Below, in pieces: positions 18,288 to 34,484 of a DNA stretch of 64,000 nt (the first letter of the stretch is position 1; every line of letters begins with the position of its first letter). Position numbers and translations under genes: made by a program. The DNA is from Bacteroidota bacterium. Its GTDB lineage: Bacteria; Bacteroidota; Bacteroidia; Cytophagales; Cyclobacteriaceae. The notes beneath the pieces were generated by a model, which searched no databases, was not told where the DNA came from, and saw only the letters and a program-made list of their open reading frames with translations. Location: NCBI GenBank assembly GCA_016866385.1, contig VGMU01000004.1:1-64000 (forward strand), read 5' to 3'.

Positions 18288-19133
18288 CTAAATTGTCCCC
18301 ACCCCGTTCTGAAGCGTGCCAATGACTTCCATGTTGATGGTCACGGAATCCCCTTTTGCCAAGGAAAAATCATCGGGCACAATACCGGTTCCTGTCATCA
18401 GAAAACAGCCATTTGGAAAGGAATTGGCTCGGAAAAGCCATTGGGCTAGTTCTTCTGGGCTTCGCTTCAATTGCGCCAAGGTGGTTTCCCCCGAAGCGGC
18501 CAGTCTCCCCTGCCGATGCACCTCCAAACTGATCTTGGTGGAAGCGGGCAGTGGTTCTTCTTGAATCAATAGGCAAGGCCCGAGAGAAGCGCAGCCCTGG
18601 TACACTTTGGCTTGAGGAAGGTAGAGGGGATTTTCCCCTTCGATGCTGCGGCTGCTCATGTCGTTGCCGATGGTGTATCCTTGAATTTTTCCCGATGGGG
18701 AAAGCAACAGTGTCAGCTCGGGCTCGGGCACATCCCAACTGGAGTCGGTACGGATCTTGACTAATTCTCCAGGATTGGATACCCGGCTGGCAGTGGCTTT
18801 GAAGAAGAGCTCGGGACGCTCGGCCACGTAGACTTTGTCGTAAAAGGTAGCTCCACCGGCATCACTGGATTCCTCCATTCGAGCGGTCCTACTCCGAAAA
18901 TAAGTCACCCCCGCAGCCCAAACTTCCTGAGTTCCCATGGGGGCGAGCAGCCCTTCCCCGATGCACTCTTTCGCTTTTTCGAGACTTATTTTTTCCCAAT
19001 GACTGGCCTCCGAAGCCAGCAATTTGGGGAGCTGCTCCCTGCCGAGCAACTGGTCCCAATCGAGTTCAGGGCCTAAATAATGGCTGTCGTTTAGTTCCAA
19101 AAGTGTTCCTGAAATCAATTTGTACAATCGCAT
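18288..19133 (-). CDS. Fumarylacetoacetate hydrolase family protein
   Basis: VPEPELTLLLSPSGKIQGYTIGNDMSSRSIEGENPLYLPQAKVYQGCASLGP; TGTGIVPDDFSLAKGDSV. Confidence 0.87.
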   Translation of the reverse strand: MRLYKLISGTLLELNDSHYLGPELDWDQLLGREQLPKLLASEASHWEKISLEKAKECIGEGLLAPMGTQEVWAAGVTYFRSRTARMEESSDAGGATFYDKVYVAERPELFFKATASRVSNPGELVKIRTDSSWDVPEPELTLLLSPSGKIQGYTIGNDMSSRSIEGENPLYLPQAKVYQGCASLGPCLLIQEEPLPASTKISLEVHRQGRLAASGETTLAQLKRSPEELAQWLFRANSFPNGCFLMTGTGIVPDDFSLAKGDSVTINMEVIGTLQNGVGTI

Positions 19134-19190
19134 CGTAAAGTGGTTTGAGGTGGATGCTTCAAGTTAAAAAAAAGTAAGGAAGTACAGGCT

Positions 19191-19221
19191 TTTGGAAAAA
19201 AACTTTTCCCCCCTAACTTTG
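19191..19221 (+). promoter_or_regulatory. Bacteroidetes-type promoter for the TPP riboswitch / TonB receptor transcript
   Basis: TTTG (19191-19194) - N19 - TAACTTTG (19214-19221), matching TTTG-N19-TAnnTTTG. Confidence 0.75.
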
Positions 19222-19232
19222 TTTTCAGATCA

Positions 19233-19312
19233 TAAGGGGTGCCTTAATACAACGGGCTGAGATCATACCCATATTACCTGATCCGGGTAATGCCGGCGAA
19301 GGGAAATGAGCA
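19233..19312 (+). promoter_or_regulatory. TPP (thi-box) riboswitch aptamer
   Basis: AAGGGGTGCC...GGGCTGAGATCATACCC...TTACCTGATCCGGGTAATGCCGGCGAAGGGAA matches the conserved thi-box elements. Confidence 0.95.
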
Positions 19313-19313
19313 T

Positions 19314-19378
19314 GCGAAGTAAAAACAGATTCCAATTGAGGAAGGGCTAGCCTTCTTTCCGAAGTGTTTTTGCCTCGC
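19314..19378 (+). promoter_or_regulatory. Candidate expression-platform hairpin of the TPP riboswitch
   Basis: GCGAAGTAAAAACA (19314-19327) can pair with TGTTTTTGCCTCGC (19365-19378) over 14 positions with one mismatch and one G-U; a nested AAGGGCTAGCCTT palindrome lies inside. Confidence 0.45.
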
Positions 19379-19453
19379 AACCGGGTAAACAATCAAGGAA
19401 AACCTCCCCTGGGTTTTCTCCTGTTTCACTCAAAAACCCGAAAGGGAGAAATT

Positions 19454-21841
19454 ATGAAAAAGTTAGTTCTTCTAGGACTGTACGTACTGTTCAGTCTACC
19501 TACTTGGGCACAATCCAGCCTAAGCGGGAGAATTTACGATGCCAAAACCGCCGCTCCTTTGGTAGGCGCATCTATTTGGATCGAAAGTTTGGGAAAAGGT
19601 ACCGTCACAGATACGGATGGGAATTTTACATTGGCACGAGTGCCCAATGGAAAGCAGGAAATCCGAGTTTCCTACGTGGGCTATGAAACCGTACGCAAGG
19701 CAGTGGAACTTCCTCTGTCAGCCTCCCTGGAACTAGGCTTGGTGTCCAAGGATTTCTTGAGCGAGGAATTTATTGTGTCCGCTACCCGCGCTTCCGAAAG
19801 TACGCCGACTACCTACACTACGGTGGATAAGTCGGAACTTGCCAAGCGAAATTTGGGGCAGGACATTCCTATCCTCCTCAACTTTTCCCCCTCCGTAGTC
19901 AGCCACTCCGACGCAGGAGCTGGGGTGGGCTACACGGGAATCCGTATCCGAGGCACCGACCAAACCCGCATCAATGCCACCATCAACGGCATTCCACTCA
20001 ACGATGCGGAGTCGCATGGGGTCTTTTGGGTGAATATGCCGGACTTTGCCTCCTCGGTGGACAATATCCAGATCCAACGTGGGGTGGGGACCTCTACCAA
20101 CGGCGCCGCTACTTTTGGTGCCAGCCTCAACTTTCAGACGGACACCCGACGCAACGAGGCCTATGCCGAAATTGACAATGGATTCGGCTCTTTCAACACC
20201 TGGAGACATACCGTCAAAGCGGGAACAGGCCTGCTCAACAACCGCTTTGCGTTTGATGCACGTCTGTCCAAGATTACTTCAGACGGTTTTGTGGATCGGG
20301 CCTTTTCAGACCTAGGCAGCTGGTTTGTGTCGGGAGGATACTACGGAGAAAAGAGCGTCATTAAATTGATCGCTTTTTCTGGAAAAGAACAAACCTACCA
20401 AAGTTGGGCAGGGCTTCCCGAAAGCAAGTTGAAGACCGATCGAACCTTTAATTCCTACACCTACGATAACGAAACGGACAATTACCAGCAAGATCATTAC
20501 CAGTTGATTTACACAGGAAAAGTGGGTTCCAACTGGAAGACCAACCTGGCACTGCATTACACCTACGGACGTGGTTACTACGAGCAGTTTCGAGAAAATG
20601 ATAAACTTTCCCGTTACAATTTACCCCATGTGGTGATTGGCAGTCAGGTGATTTCTCGTACCGATATCATTCGCCGTCGCTGGCTGGACAATGATTTTTA
20701 CGGGTTTGTAGGGTCGGTAAATTACATTTCTACCGATGGCAAACTCGATTGGATCATCGGGGGAGGTGCCAATCGTTACGATGGAGGACACTTTGGAGAG
20801 GTCATTTGGGCGAGAATTGCCGGGGCAACCAACATTCGTGATCGCTACTACGACAACAACGCCGTGAAGGACGACCGAAACATGTACACCAAAGCCACCT
20901 ACGAGATCGAGCCTGGGCTGAATCTATTTGGAGATTTGCAGTTGCGCGGCATCTCCTACTCCTTCTATGGAGTGAACGACGACTTACGTATCGTGGATGG
21001 TCAGGCAAACTATACATTTTTCAACCCGAAGTTTGGCTTCTCCTACGAGAAAGCAAAGCAAACCTGGTATGCGAGCTATGCCGTGGCCAACCGGGAACCG
21101 ACCCGCTCGGACTTCACCGACAATCCAATTACCGAAGTGCCCAGACCCGAGCGCCTCAACAATGTGGAGGCGGGTGTACGAACCAAATCGGGTAACTTCA
21201 GCTACAATGCCAACTTCTACTACATGGGTTACAAAGACCAGTTGATCCTGACGGGACAGATCAATGACGTGGGGGCCTATATCCGAGAAAATGTGGCATC
21301 TTCCTACCGTGCAGGGATGGAATTGGATGGAGCCTACCTCCTTTCCAAGACCTGGACCTTGGGGGGTAACCTCGCGCTGAGTCAAAACAAAATCCGGGAA
21401 TTTACCGAGTACATCGATGATTATAGCGTGGATGAGTTCCGACAGGAAACCAACACCTATACCGATACGGACATTGCCTTTTCTCCGAATGTGGTGAGTT
21501 CGGCGATTATCGAGTACAAGCCGAACAAAAACCTGTCCCTCAACTGGATGAGTAAGTACGTAGGCAGACAGTTTTTGGACAATACCGCCAATGAAGCTCG
21601 GTCCCTGGATGCCTTCTTTACGAATGACTTGCGAATCAGTTATTCCGCGACGCCTCGCTTCTTCAAAGGCCTGGAAGTGAATGTGTTGATCAACAATATC
21701 TTCAATGAAATGTACGAGCCCAATGGCTACACCTTCAGCTACTTTGTACCTGGAGGAAATGGCCGAGAGTTGGTGACAGAAAACTTCTTCTATCCTCAGG
21801 CCGGAACGAATTTCTTGTTGGGGGTGAAGATGAAGTTCTAA
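19454..21841 (+). CDS. TonB-dependent receptor with carboxypeptidase-like plug-associated domain; putative thiamine/thiamine-precursor receptor
   Basis: SGRIYDAKTAAPLVGASIWIESLGKGTVTDTDGNF; GIRIRGTDQTRINATINGIPLNDAESHGVFWVNMPDFASSVDNIQIQRGVGTSTNGAATFGAS; C-terminal aromatic barrel signature. ATG 19454 (MKKLVLLGLYVLFSLPTWAQ). Confidence 0.92.
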   Translation: MKKLVLLGLYVLFSLPTWAQSSLSGRIYDAKTAAPLVGASIWIESLGKGTVTDTDGNFTLARVPNGKQEIRVSYVGYETVRKAVELPLSASLELGLVSKDFLSEEFIVSATRASESTPTTYTTVDKSELAKRNLGQDIPILLNFSPSVVSHSDAGAGVGYTGIRIRGTDQTRINATINGIPLNDAESHGVFWVNMPDFASSVDNIQIQRGVGTSTNGAATFGASLNFQTDTRRNEAYAEIDNGFGSFNTWRHTVKAGTGLLNNRFAFDARLSKITSDGFVDRAFSDLGSWFVSGGYYGEKSVIKLIAFSGKEQTYQSWAGLPESKLKTDRTFNSYTYDNETDNYQQDHYQLIYTGKVGSNWKTNLALHYTYGRGYYEQFRENDKLSRYNLPHVVIGSQVISRTDIIRRRWLDNDFYGFVGSVNYISTDGKLDWIIGGGANRYDGGHFGEVIWARIAGATNIRDRYYDNNAVKDDRNMYTKATYEIEPGLNLFGDLQLRGISYSFYGVNDDLRIVDGQANYTFFNPKFGFSYEKAKQTWYASYAVANREPTRSDFTDNPITEVPRPERLNNVEAGVRTKSGNFSYNANFYYMGYKDQLILTGQINDVGAYIRENVASSYRAGMELDGAYLLSKTWTLGGNLALSQNKIREFTEYIDDYSVDEFRQETNTYTDTDIAFSPNVVSSAIIEYKPNKNLSLNWMSKYVGRQFLDNTANEARSLDAFFTNDLRISYSATPRFFKGLEVNVLINNIFNEMYEPNGYTFSYFVPGGNGRELVTENFFYPQAGTNFLLGVKMKF

Positions 21842-22039: not shown

Positions 22040-23152
22040 CTACTCCGGAAAAAGCGTCTTATCCAATCCAGGTACGATCCTCAGCGCATTTTTGTAGTAC
22101 ACCTTTTTCAAGACTTCGTCAGATAGGCCCAAACCATACATGCTCCAAAAGGCATGGTACTTTTTGTAGTAGGGGAAATACTCGTCCTCGGTTTCCAGTA
22201 CCCGGAAGTAGGTGTAAAACTCCTCCTTGTTGTAGGCATCTTTGCCGAAAAGAATGCGGTCCTGGTACTTGGTAAAAAATTCCTTGGCCCGTCGAGGCTG
22301 ACGTCCAAGTTCCGCGATGATGGCACCAATCTCGTAGTTGACATTAGGATAGCGATCCAAGTGCGCTCCAGCAGCATCCAAATCGTTGGCCATCCAACCC
22401 ATATGCGCATTGATAAAGGTGGTTTTGGGATGCTTCGCAAATACGCGGTGCTGCTCAGCGATGATTTGCTCAAAAGGTGCTGGGTCGGTAGCAGAACGGC
22501 GACGGTTCGGATGAAGCTTGAGTTCCAGCCAGCGCTCGTTGGTGGAATCCATGGGCTGCCAAAACTGGGCAGGATCGGCAGCATGGATGAGTACTGGAAT
22601 ACCGAGTTCCCCTGCCTTGGCCCATACAGGATCCAAATCGGGATGGTCCACGGGAATACGCTTGCCGGCATTATCCTTGGAGGTTAGGCCCAAACTCTTG
22701 TAAATCTTCAAGCCCACCGCTCCAGCAGCCACATCTTCTTCCAACTCCTTTACCGCCAAGGAGGACCATTCTGGTGTACCAAAACCGTTAAAATTCAAGT
22801 TGGTAAACACCATGAATCTGCCAGGGGCGTGGGTCTTAAACTCCTGCATCATGCCCTTGATGTACTCTTGCTGTGCATTGCTATTGCCTTGTCCAAATCC
22901 CCGCCCACTCAGGTTGATCATGATGCCCATGTTCAATTCATCCATTTCTCCTCGAAGTTGGTCGATCTTGGATTTGTTGATCCCTCCTTGGTGGCTGTGG
23001 ATGTCGATAAAGGGAAACTTGGCCCGCGTCACCGGATGCTGGGGCACCTTGAGTGTGGAAGGAGGATTGTAGGACTCAAAACTCATTTCTTGCGCGAAAA
23101 GAGATCCTCCGCCCAGCAGCAAAGCGAAAAGAAAAAGACTAATTTTTTTCAT
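22040..23152 (-). CDS. Amidohydrolase family protein (secreted)
   Basis: FPFIDIHSHQGG (HxH); IPVLIHAADPAQFWQP; FINAHMGWMANDLD; ILFGKDAY. ATG 23152 opens a signal peptide. Confidence 0.87.
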   Translation of the reverse strand: MKKISLFLFALLLGGGSLFAQEMSFESYNPPSTLKVPQHPVTRAKFPFIDIHSHQGGINKSKIDQLRGEMDELNMGIMINLSGRGFGQGNSNAQQEYIKGMMQEFKTHAPGRFMVFTNLNFNGFGTPEWSSLAVKELEEDVAAGAVGLKIYKSLGLTSKDNAGKRIPVDHPDLDPVWAKAGELGIPVLIHAADPAQFWQPMDSTNERWLELKLHPNRRRSATDPAPFEQIIAEQHRVFAKHPKTTFINAHMGWMANDLDAAGAHLDRYPNVNYEIGAIIAELGRQPRRAKEFFTKYQDRILFGKDAYNKEEFYTYFRVLETEDEYFPYYKKYHAFWSMYGLGLSDEVLKKVYYKNALRIVPGLDKTLFPE

Positions 23153-23179
23153 ACATTCTAAGAATAGCAAAAGAATAGA

Positions 23180-23204
23180 AAATCCCAGCATTGAGCTGGG
23201 ATTT
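23180..23204 (-). terminator. Hairpin terminator after the M14 peptidase gene
   Basis: AAATCCCAGC-N5-GCTGGGATTT (10-bp stem) followed on the minus strand by TCTATTCTTTT. Confidence 0.65.
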
Positions 23205-32570: not shown

Positions 32571-34484
32571 ATGAAAATTCAAGCAGGACCCTTACTTGCC
32601 CAAATTCAGCACCCCGCTGATTTAAAAAAATTATCAAAAGAAGCTTTGGTGCAAGTTTGTGAGGAATTGCGTCAATTTATTATTGATAATGTTTCCGTTT
32701 ACGGAGGGCATTTTGGCGCCAGTTTGGGTGTAGTAGAACTTACGGTAGCCTTGCACTATGCGCTAAATACTCCAGAAGACCAATTGGTTTGGGATGTAGG
32801 GCATCAAGCCTATGGACATAAAATCCTTACTGGACGAAGGGATATTTTTCATACCAACCGTGTTTACGGAGGGATCTCAGGATTCCCAAAAAGAAAAGAA
32901 AGTGAATTTGATACCTTTGGTGTGGGGCATTCCAGCACGTCCATCTCTGCAGCTTTAGGAATGGCCATGGCTTCCAAGTACAAAGGCTCTCCCATTCAGC
33001 ATGTGGCAGTCATTGGAGATGGTTCTTTGACAGGAGGGATGGCTTTTGAGGCATTGAATCATGCCGGAGTAAGTGGGACCAACTTGCTCATTATTCTCAA
33101 TGACAATTGCATGTCTATAGACCCCAACGTGGGGGCACTGAAAGATTACCTCACCGACATCACCACCTCGCATACCTACAATAAAGTAAAAGATGAGGTT
33201 TGGAATGTTTTGGGCAAGCTAAGCAAGTTTGGCAGCAGTGCACAAGAAATTATCTCCAAAGTAGAGGGAGCGATCAAGTCAGCGGTATTGAAGCAGAGCA
33301 ACCTTTTCGAATCCCTAAATCTACGCTACTTTGGGCCTGTGGACGGTCACGACGTAGATCATTTGGTGGAAATTTTAAAGGACTTGCGAGACATCCCTGG
33401 CCCTAAAATATTGCATTGCATTACCGTCAAAGGAAAAGGTTTTGGTCCAGCAGAAACGGGTAACAAAACCACCTGGCATGCCCCAGGACTTTTCGACAAG
33501 GTAACGGGAGAGATTTATAAGAAGATGCCTTCTTCTCCTCAAGCTCCTAAATACCAGGATGTCTTTGGAAATAGCTTGGTGGAATTGGCAGAACAAGACT
33601 CCCGCATCATGGGGGTAACTCCTGCCATGCCTTCAGGATCCTCCATGAATATCATGATGGCAGCCATGCCAGATCGTGCCTTTGATGTGGGCATCGCCGA
33701 ACAACATGCCGTGACCTTTTCTGCGGGAATGGCAACCCAGGGATTGGTCCCTTTTTGTAACATCTACTCCTCCTTTATGCAGCGGGCATACGACCAGGTA
33801 ATCCATGACGTATGCTTGCAAAATTTACCCGTAGTATTTTGTTTGGATAGGGCTGGTTTTGCCGGGGCAGATGGGCCTACCCACCACGGAGCCTATGATT
33901 TGGCTTACTTTAGATGTATTCCCAACCTAGTGGTATCAGCTCCTATGAATGAGGAGGAGTTAAGAAACTTGATGTATACGGCCACGCTTTACGGATCTCC
34001 CTTCTCCATACGCTACCCAAGAGGTAATGGGGTCATGGTAGATTGGAAAACTCCCTTCCAACAAATTCCCGTGGGACAAGGTCGAAAAGTAAAAGCTGGA
34101 GAGGAAGTAGCTATTTTGACCATCGGGCACATAGGCAACTATGCCGTTCAAGCCTGTGATCTGCTTGAAAAAGAGGGGCTTCATCCCGCACACTACGACA
34201 TGCGATTTGTCAAGCCCTTGGATGAAAAATTACTGCATGAAGTTTTTTCCTCTTTCAAAAGGGTGGTTACCGTAGAAGATGGCTGCCTTTTGGGAGGGTT
34301 TGGTTCTGCTATTCTGGAATGGATGGTAGATCAAGGCTATAGTGCCCAGGTAAAACGACTAGGCATCCCAGATGAAGTAGTAGAGCACGGGGAGCAATTT
34401 GAATTGCATCAAGAGTGTGGATTTGATCTCGAGGGTATAGCCAATGCCGTCAGAAGTCTTGTTCCTCACCTCCAATTGGCCTGA
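32571..34484 (+). CDS. dxs: 1-deoxy-D-xylulose-5-phosphate synthase
   Basis: GGHFGASLGVVELTVALHY, WDVGHQAYGHKILTGRR, VIGDGSLTGGMAFEALNH, DRAGFAGADGPTHHGAYD. Confidence 0.96.
   Translation: MKIQAGPLLAQIQHPADLKKLSKEALVQVCEELRQFIIDNVSVYGGHFGASLGVVELTVALHYALNTPEDQLVWDVGHQAYGHKILTGRRDIFHTNRVYGGISGFPKRKESEFDTFGVGHSSTSISAALGMAMASKYKGSPIQHVAVIGDGSLTGGMAFEALNHAGVSGTNLLIILNDNCMSIDPNVGALKDYLTDITTSHTYNKVKDEVWNVLGKLSKFGSSAQEIISKVEGAIKSAVLKQSNLFESLNLRYFGPVDGHDVDHLVEILKDLRDIPGPKILHCITVKGKGFGPAETGNKTTWHAPGLFDKVTGEIYKKMPSSPQAPKYQDVFGNSLVELAEQDSRIMGVTPAMPSGSSMNIMMAAMPDRAFDVGIAEQHAVTFSAGMATQGLVPFCNIYSSFMQRAYDQVIHDVCLQNLPVVFCLDRAGFAGADGPTHHGAYDLAYFRCIPNLVVSAPMNEEELRNLMYTATLYGSPFSIRYPRGNGVMVDWKTPFQQIPVGQGRKVKAGEEVAILTIGHIGNYAVQACDLLEKEGLHPAHYDMRFVKPLDEKLLHEVFSSFKRVVTVEDGCLLGGFGSAILEWMVDQGYSAQVKRLGIPDEVVEHGEQFELHQECGFDLEGIANAVRSLVPHLQLA

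Follow-up and report, generated by a model that had tools for sequence, protein, structure and literature searches.

A TPP riboswitch precedes an OMthi/Omr1-family outer-membrane receptor in an Algoriphagus-like bacterium apparently dependent on vitamin B1 uptake

In this study, we analysed a 64 kb stretch of DNA (hereafter the window) from an Algoriphagus-like member of the Bacteroidota, and focused on a short transcription unit in which one TonB-dependent receptor gene stands behind a TPP riboswitch. The following features were located.

18288-19133, minus strand: divergent neighbour of the FAA-hydrolase family (PF01557), given as context.
19190-19221, plus strand: Bacteroidota-type promoter, read directly from the sequence, with a -33-like TTTTG (19190-19194), a spacing of 19 nt and a -7-like TAACTTTG (19214-19221).
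19225-19321, plus strand: TPP riboswitch aptamer (RF00059), found by cmscan, the single match in the genome.
19235-19239, plus strand: AGGGG in the 5' strand of the aptamer, read directly from the sequence and complementary to the CCCCU loop below.
19340-19360, plus strand: small hairpin GGAAGGGCTAGCCTTCTTTCC, terminator-like by pattern only and poorly conserved.
19397-19419, plus strand: candidate expression-platform hairpin with a 9-bp stem, GGAAAACCU/GGGUUUUCU, and the loop CCCCU (19406-19410).
19454-21841, plus strand: TonB-dependent receptor of OMthi/Omr1 type, 795 aa, assigned by Pfam domains, with orthologues across the genus.
22040-23191, minus strand: convergent neighbour, an amidohydrolase (PF04909), given as context, at which the transcription unit ends.

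The cmscan search of the whole 64 kb against Rfam returned a single match above a gathering cut-off, namely RF00059 (66.5 bits against a gathering score of 54.3, E 7.4e-11). The match is full length (model positions 1-105, not truncated), so that in length and score the aptamer conforms to the THI element of Rfam, and 132 nt separate it from the ATG of the receptor. No second RF00059 match was found when the entire assembly (2.65 Mb in 136 contigs, 91.7% complete) was searched with the covariance model, and one TPP aptamer only is present in the closed, single-contig genome G033 of the same genus. The preliminary description had placed a thi-box at 19233-19312, which proved to be the core of the present match; it had proposed an Infernal search with RF00059, a missing match to count against it, and that search gave the 66.5 bits reported here. 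In this assembly and in G033 the receptor does form a single-gene regulon, as that description had further proposed. The observation of a TPP riboswitch in front of a TonB receptor is confirmed.

The receptor is read from the ATG at 19454, within a longer reading frame that opens with a GTG at 19364. Its N-terminus is signal-peptide-like, and three domains exceeded the Pfam cut-offs: CarbopepD_reg_2 (aa 23-108), Plug (aa 115-222) and TonB_dep_Rec_b-barrel (aa 330-749). Against the SusC/RagA model (TIGR04056) it scored 52.9 bits, below the curated cut-off of 368.25. The domains and the start codon bear out that a TonB receptor lies directly behind the thi-box, as had been described; equally correct was that no thiamine gene follows it, the amidohydrolase gene being convergent because it lies on the minus strand. 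Demand for TPP is evident in the window itself, which carries the gene of a TPP-dependent enzyme, dxs (32571-34484).

Promoters of Bacteroidota follow a -33/-7 consensus, and the predicted start of the transcript (about 19228) coincides with the 5' edge of the aptamer. Of 13 aligned leaders, 12 keep TANNTTTG and every one keeps the TT of the -33 element. The motif by itself is no rarity, occurring 57 times in the window where 48.7 are expected, and the case for the promoter therefore rests on conservation and position. A sigma-70 scan of the leader gave no promoter, as is expected for this phylum. The small hairpin at 19340-19360 was discounted as a possible terminator, being variable in the leader alignment and folding no better than shuffled sequences (z -0.38).

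We then compared 80 loci with relatives of the receptor, ranging from 93% down to about 48% identity, in named genomes that are mostly Bacteroidota and include Algoriphagus, Cyclobacterium, Belliella, Pontibacter, Spirosoma, Dyadobacter, Pedobacter, Fluviicola and others. When these loci were searched with a covariance model made from the relatives' own aptamers, 79 showed a TPP aptamer immediately ahead of the receptor gene and in its orientation; at the remaining locus a contig end leaves about 22 nt of upstream sequence. Rfam's own cut-off was passed at nine of the 12 related loci tested. Within the genus, receptor orthologues of 70-93% identity stand behind an aptamer in nearly every genome.

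Several leaders of the sample were unusual. Those of Pedobacter type (L087, L090, L101, L110, L185) carry TPP aptamers below the Rfam gathering cut-off, some with long insertions, and would consequently be missed by automated annotation. Double model matches in such leaders had raised the possibility of tandem riboswitches, which was rejected when the Rfam alignments resolved them as one aptamer with a long insertion; L051:4707-4954, where two TPP model matches follow one another before the receptor, may be a true tandem pair. Matches resembling the Flavo-1 RNA, just under the Rfam cut-off, were seen upstream of the TPP aptamer at L087:4554-4675 and L110:4564-4633.

The receptor aligns end to end, at 27% identity (E 7e-85), with receptors of TPP-receptor-pyrophosphokinase loci in other Bacteroidota. 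The order in these TPK-positive genomes of other lineages is TPP aptamer, receptor homologue, pyrophosphokinase, which is the receptor-pyrophosphokinase adjacency described for OMthi of gut Bacteroides (PMC5613172). OMthi (BT2390 of B. thetaiotaomicron; the same as Omr1, and "omr1" in PMC10881298 and PMC12442306) shares with the present locus a TonB-dependent receptor with a TPP riboswitch, and is a predicted and genetically supported thiamine transporter (PMC5613172). By its homology with the receptors of those loci, the present receptor is a member of the OMthi/Omr1 family and thus of a known kind, and very probably imports B1 across the outer membrane.

The complement of thiamine genes points in the same direction. 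Neither ThiC, nor a protein of the TMP-TENI family (PF02581, ThiE), nor a thiamine pyrophosphokinase (PF04263) was detected in the present genome at 91.7% completeness, and ThiL was found above its curated cut-off (G000:C10:6048-7040). The pattern recurs unchanged in single-contig G033, where ThiL is present and the other three are missing, and these absences are hence not only gaps of a metagenome-assembled genome. ThiC is also absent from 34 of 36 other genomes of the genus, and the two that have it carry it immediately after a further TPP aptamer; order-wide, the PF04263 pyrophosphokinase is scarce and ThiL is retained. With ThiC, ThiE and the pyrophosphokinase undetected and ThiL present, the bacterium appears to be a B1 auxotroph reliant on uptake, and differs in its missing biosynthesis genes from the OMthi system of gut Bacteroides. 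Many environmental Bacteroidota are unable to make B1, and genomes lacking a recognised route have been noted (PMC10881298).

Four larger Algoriphagus genomes (G010, G018, G017, G028; loci L132-L134 and L144) carry a TPP aptamer before an unusual operon for methyltransferase-like, AIRS/ThiL-like and ThiE-family proteins, with a Trm112-like protein in at least one.

In many genomes, the gene of an OMthi/Omr1 receptor has that of a PnuC-family carrier as a partner; such linkage to a carrier and a thiamine-phosphorylating enzyme is frequent without strictly defining the family. The partners in gut Bacteroides are pnuT and the pyrophosphokinase gene tnr3, whereas the present genome, in which no PF04263 protein was found, has a PnuC-family gene (G000:C70:2622-3161) followed at once by a gene for an AAA_28 kinase of 174 aa (G000:C70:2084-2608), on a contig other than that of the receptor and with no TPP aptamer there. 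Split OMthi loci also occur in B. thetaiotaomicron (PMC5613172). PnuT with Tnr3 in Bacteroides, and PnuC with the NadR kinase in nicotinamide-riboside (NR) salvage, follow the same logic of a carrier and a trapping kinase; the present genome differs from both in pairing a PnuC-type carrier with a stand-alone kinase like the RNK (nicotinamide-riboside kinase) domain of NadR, which in relatives lies in the OMthi cluster. Specifically, 25 of the 80 loci, spread over different families, have the kinase gene upstream of the TPP-receptor unit and in the same orientation, and the order PnuC, kinase, TPP aptamer, receptor was found in further families of a phylum sample. The kinase thereby occupies the place in the cluster where the pyrophosphokinase would sit. 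Among 198 sampled genomes of the phylum, 50 belong to the window's class; ThiL is present in 50 of these 50, and the pyrophosphokinase in all five genomes without a kinase match as against eight of the 45 with one (Fisher p = 0.0006, kinship uncorrected). A specific alignment (A3) served as the marker of the kinase, since PF13521 also catches NadR and unrelated AAA_28 proteins.

Synteny, the distribution complementary to the pyrophosphokinase and the universal ThiL of the class together led us to propose that the kinase makes TMP from thiamine, and we put the chances that it is the missing thiamine kinase feeding ThiL at about even. We found no described thiamine kinase of the NadR-like AAA_28 type in the open-access literature. 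The pair might instead serve ordinary nicotinamide-riboside uptake and phosphorylation, its place beside OMthi being without function and thiamine being imported and phosphorylated by other proteins. The carrier is indeed called a PnuC/NR transporter by NCBIfam above the cut-off, the kinase resembles the NadR RNK domain, and in ten larger Algoriphagus genomes a TPP-like aptamer immediately precedes a further PnuC-family gene, whose product would in those genomes be the better thiamine carrier. Comparing the kinase with solved structures of NadR gave no discrimination between NR and thiamine as its substrate. However, the recurrent position upstream of TPP-receptor units and the distribution against the pyrophosphokinase speak for a thiamine role, and the present genome and G033 have neither a TPP-linked PnuT nor any known thiamine-phosphorylating enzyme among those tested. 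We regard the nicotinamide-riboside explanation as a substantial possibility that falls somewhat short of probable.

Further arrangements around these genes were recorded. At L137:6098-7920 and L138:4810-6631 a low-scoring TPP-like aptamer directly precedes a PnuC-family gene and an acyl-CoA-dehydrogenase-like gene, and this pairing of aptamer and PnuC was seen in about ten Algoriphagus genomes. At L142:6185-7989 (G054) a TPP aptamer precedes genes for a DUF6687 protein and a PnuC-family protein, so that DUF6687 may have a part in B1 metabolism. Fusions of the AAA_28 kinase were seen with DUF4301, between PnuC and the TPP-receptor unit, in one family (L161:4269-6389; L162 and L163 alike), and with aldose-1-epimerase, beside PnuC and a TPP-controlled receptor (L141:7163-8608).

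The receptor may also take up mainly a B1-related compound other than free thiamine, such as TMP, TPP, or a precursor or breakdown product like HMP. Import of TMP would fit the order-wide scarcity of PF04263 with ThiL retained, as ThiL could finish TMP. On the other hand, a precursor alone would not suffice in a genome without ThiC and ThiE, PnuT-type carriers have been described as movers of thiamine (PMC7749635), and the kinase travels with the carrier although phosphorylated substrates would need none. An OMthi mutant of B. thetaiotaomicron in a strain that cannot synthesise thiamine also showed a higher need for it (PMC5613172). Taken together, we judge a main substrate other than thiamine to be unlikely. 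A decayed aptamer, or one matched by chance, in front of a generic TonB receptor is most improbable: such receptors are common in Bacteroidota, and nothing else was found in favour of it, but the score lies well over the cut-off, the copy is single in the genome, and position and core are conserved in nearly all relatives. The earlier reading of the locus as an uptake system is supported, at the level of sequence, by this conserved pairing, the pathway gaps with ThiL, the PnuC-kinase synteny in relatives and the OMthi-type homology.

How the aptamer might act on the receptor is suggested by the leader between it and the ATG. An alignment of 13 Algoriphagus-type leaders revealed a conserved block in this interval, centred on a hairpin with a CCCC(U) loop; in the window it folds at 19397-19419, flanked by GGGTAAACA (19383-19391) and TGTTTCAC (19422-19429). 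Hairpins with a C(C/U)CC loop were present in 33 of 56 receptor leaders, while dinucleotide shuffles gave 1.4 +/- 1.1 (largest 5 in 200 shuffles). They match no Rfam family and lie outside the RF00059 model. Covariation was assessed on 18 gap-free hairpins of one length: each of the nine stem pairs shows changes in both partners, 0 of 500 shuffles reached the covariation score, a register shift of the pairing abolished the signal, and 92.6% of cells are paired, a value biased upward as the examples were picked for having the hairpin. Double changes in all nine pairs would nevertheless be hard to get by such selection alone. Its recurrence in leaders from across the phylum and its strong covariation make the hairpin a likely expression platform.

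Its loop is complementary to the conserved AGGGG of the aptamer, and the duplex predicted between the two regions in the window has -10.6 kcal/mol; complementarity beyond AGGGG/CCCCU is modest here. Binding between an aptamer and its own leader is slightly stronger than in permuted combinations (p = 0.001, kinship uncorrected). At TPK-positive loci of other lineages a run of U follows the corresponding hairpin, whose loop and 3' arm show complementarity to the 5' flank of the aptamer, an arrangement that we interpret as intrinsic terminator plus antiterminator. The hairpin of the window has no clean U-tract. In its lineage the U-tract is poor, and both termination and translational control are thus possible. 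The mode of action of TPP riboswitches in Bacteroidetes has been called uncertain, and transporter transcripts of B. thetaiotaomicron, OMthi included, change little with thiamine (PMC5613172), which leaves room for control that is weak, exerted on translation or dependent on conditions.

Overall, we consider it highly likely that a TPP-sensing OFF switch controls an OMthi/Omr1-family outer-membrane thiamine receptor in a bacterium unable to make thiamine. To the earlier description this adds evidence of auxotrophy, and we further infer a platform role for the covarying hairpin and a candidate thiamine kinase. Transcription would start at the aptamer's edge. At low TPP, the aptamer's 5' strand (AGGGG and its flanks) would pair with the CCCCU loop and the 3' arm, holding the hairpin open so that the receptor is made; when TPP is bound, the aptamer would keep its own 5' strand, the hairpin would form, and receptor expression would drop through termination or blocked translation. 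The receptor, judging from its family, would move thiamine across the outer membrane using TonB, the PnuC-type carrier of the inner membrane could then import it, the adjacent kinase could phosphorylate it, and ThiL would complete TPP. Less settled is the broader proposal that the NadR-like AAA_28 kinase beside PnuC is an undescribed thiamine kinase, yielding TMP for ThiL to finish and replacing the pyrophosphokinase route of gut Bacteroides, and that the CCCC-loop hairpin is a phylum-wide platform of OMthi genes; for this double claim we see the scales as evenly balanced.

The locus represents a simple case, with one TPP riboswitch, one receptor and no synthesis genes. It makes the action of TPP riboswitches in Bacteroidota testable, through a conserved covarying hairpin that can be mutated, and likewise the phosphorylation of thiamine in lineages without the pyrophosphokinase, for which a candidate kinase is now named.
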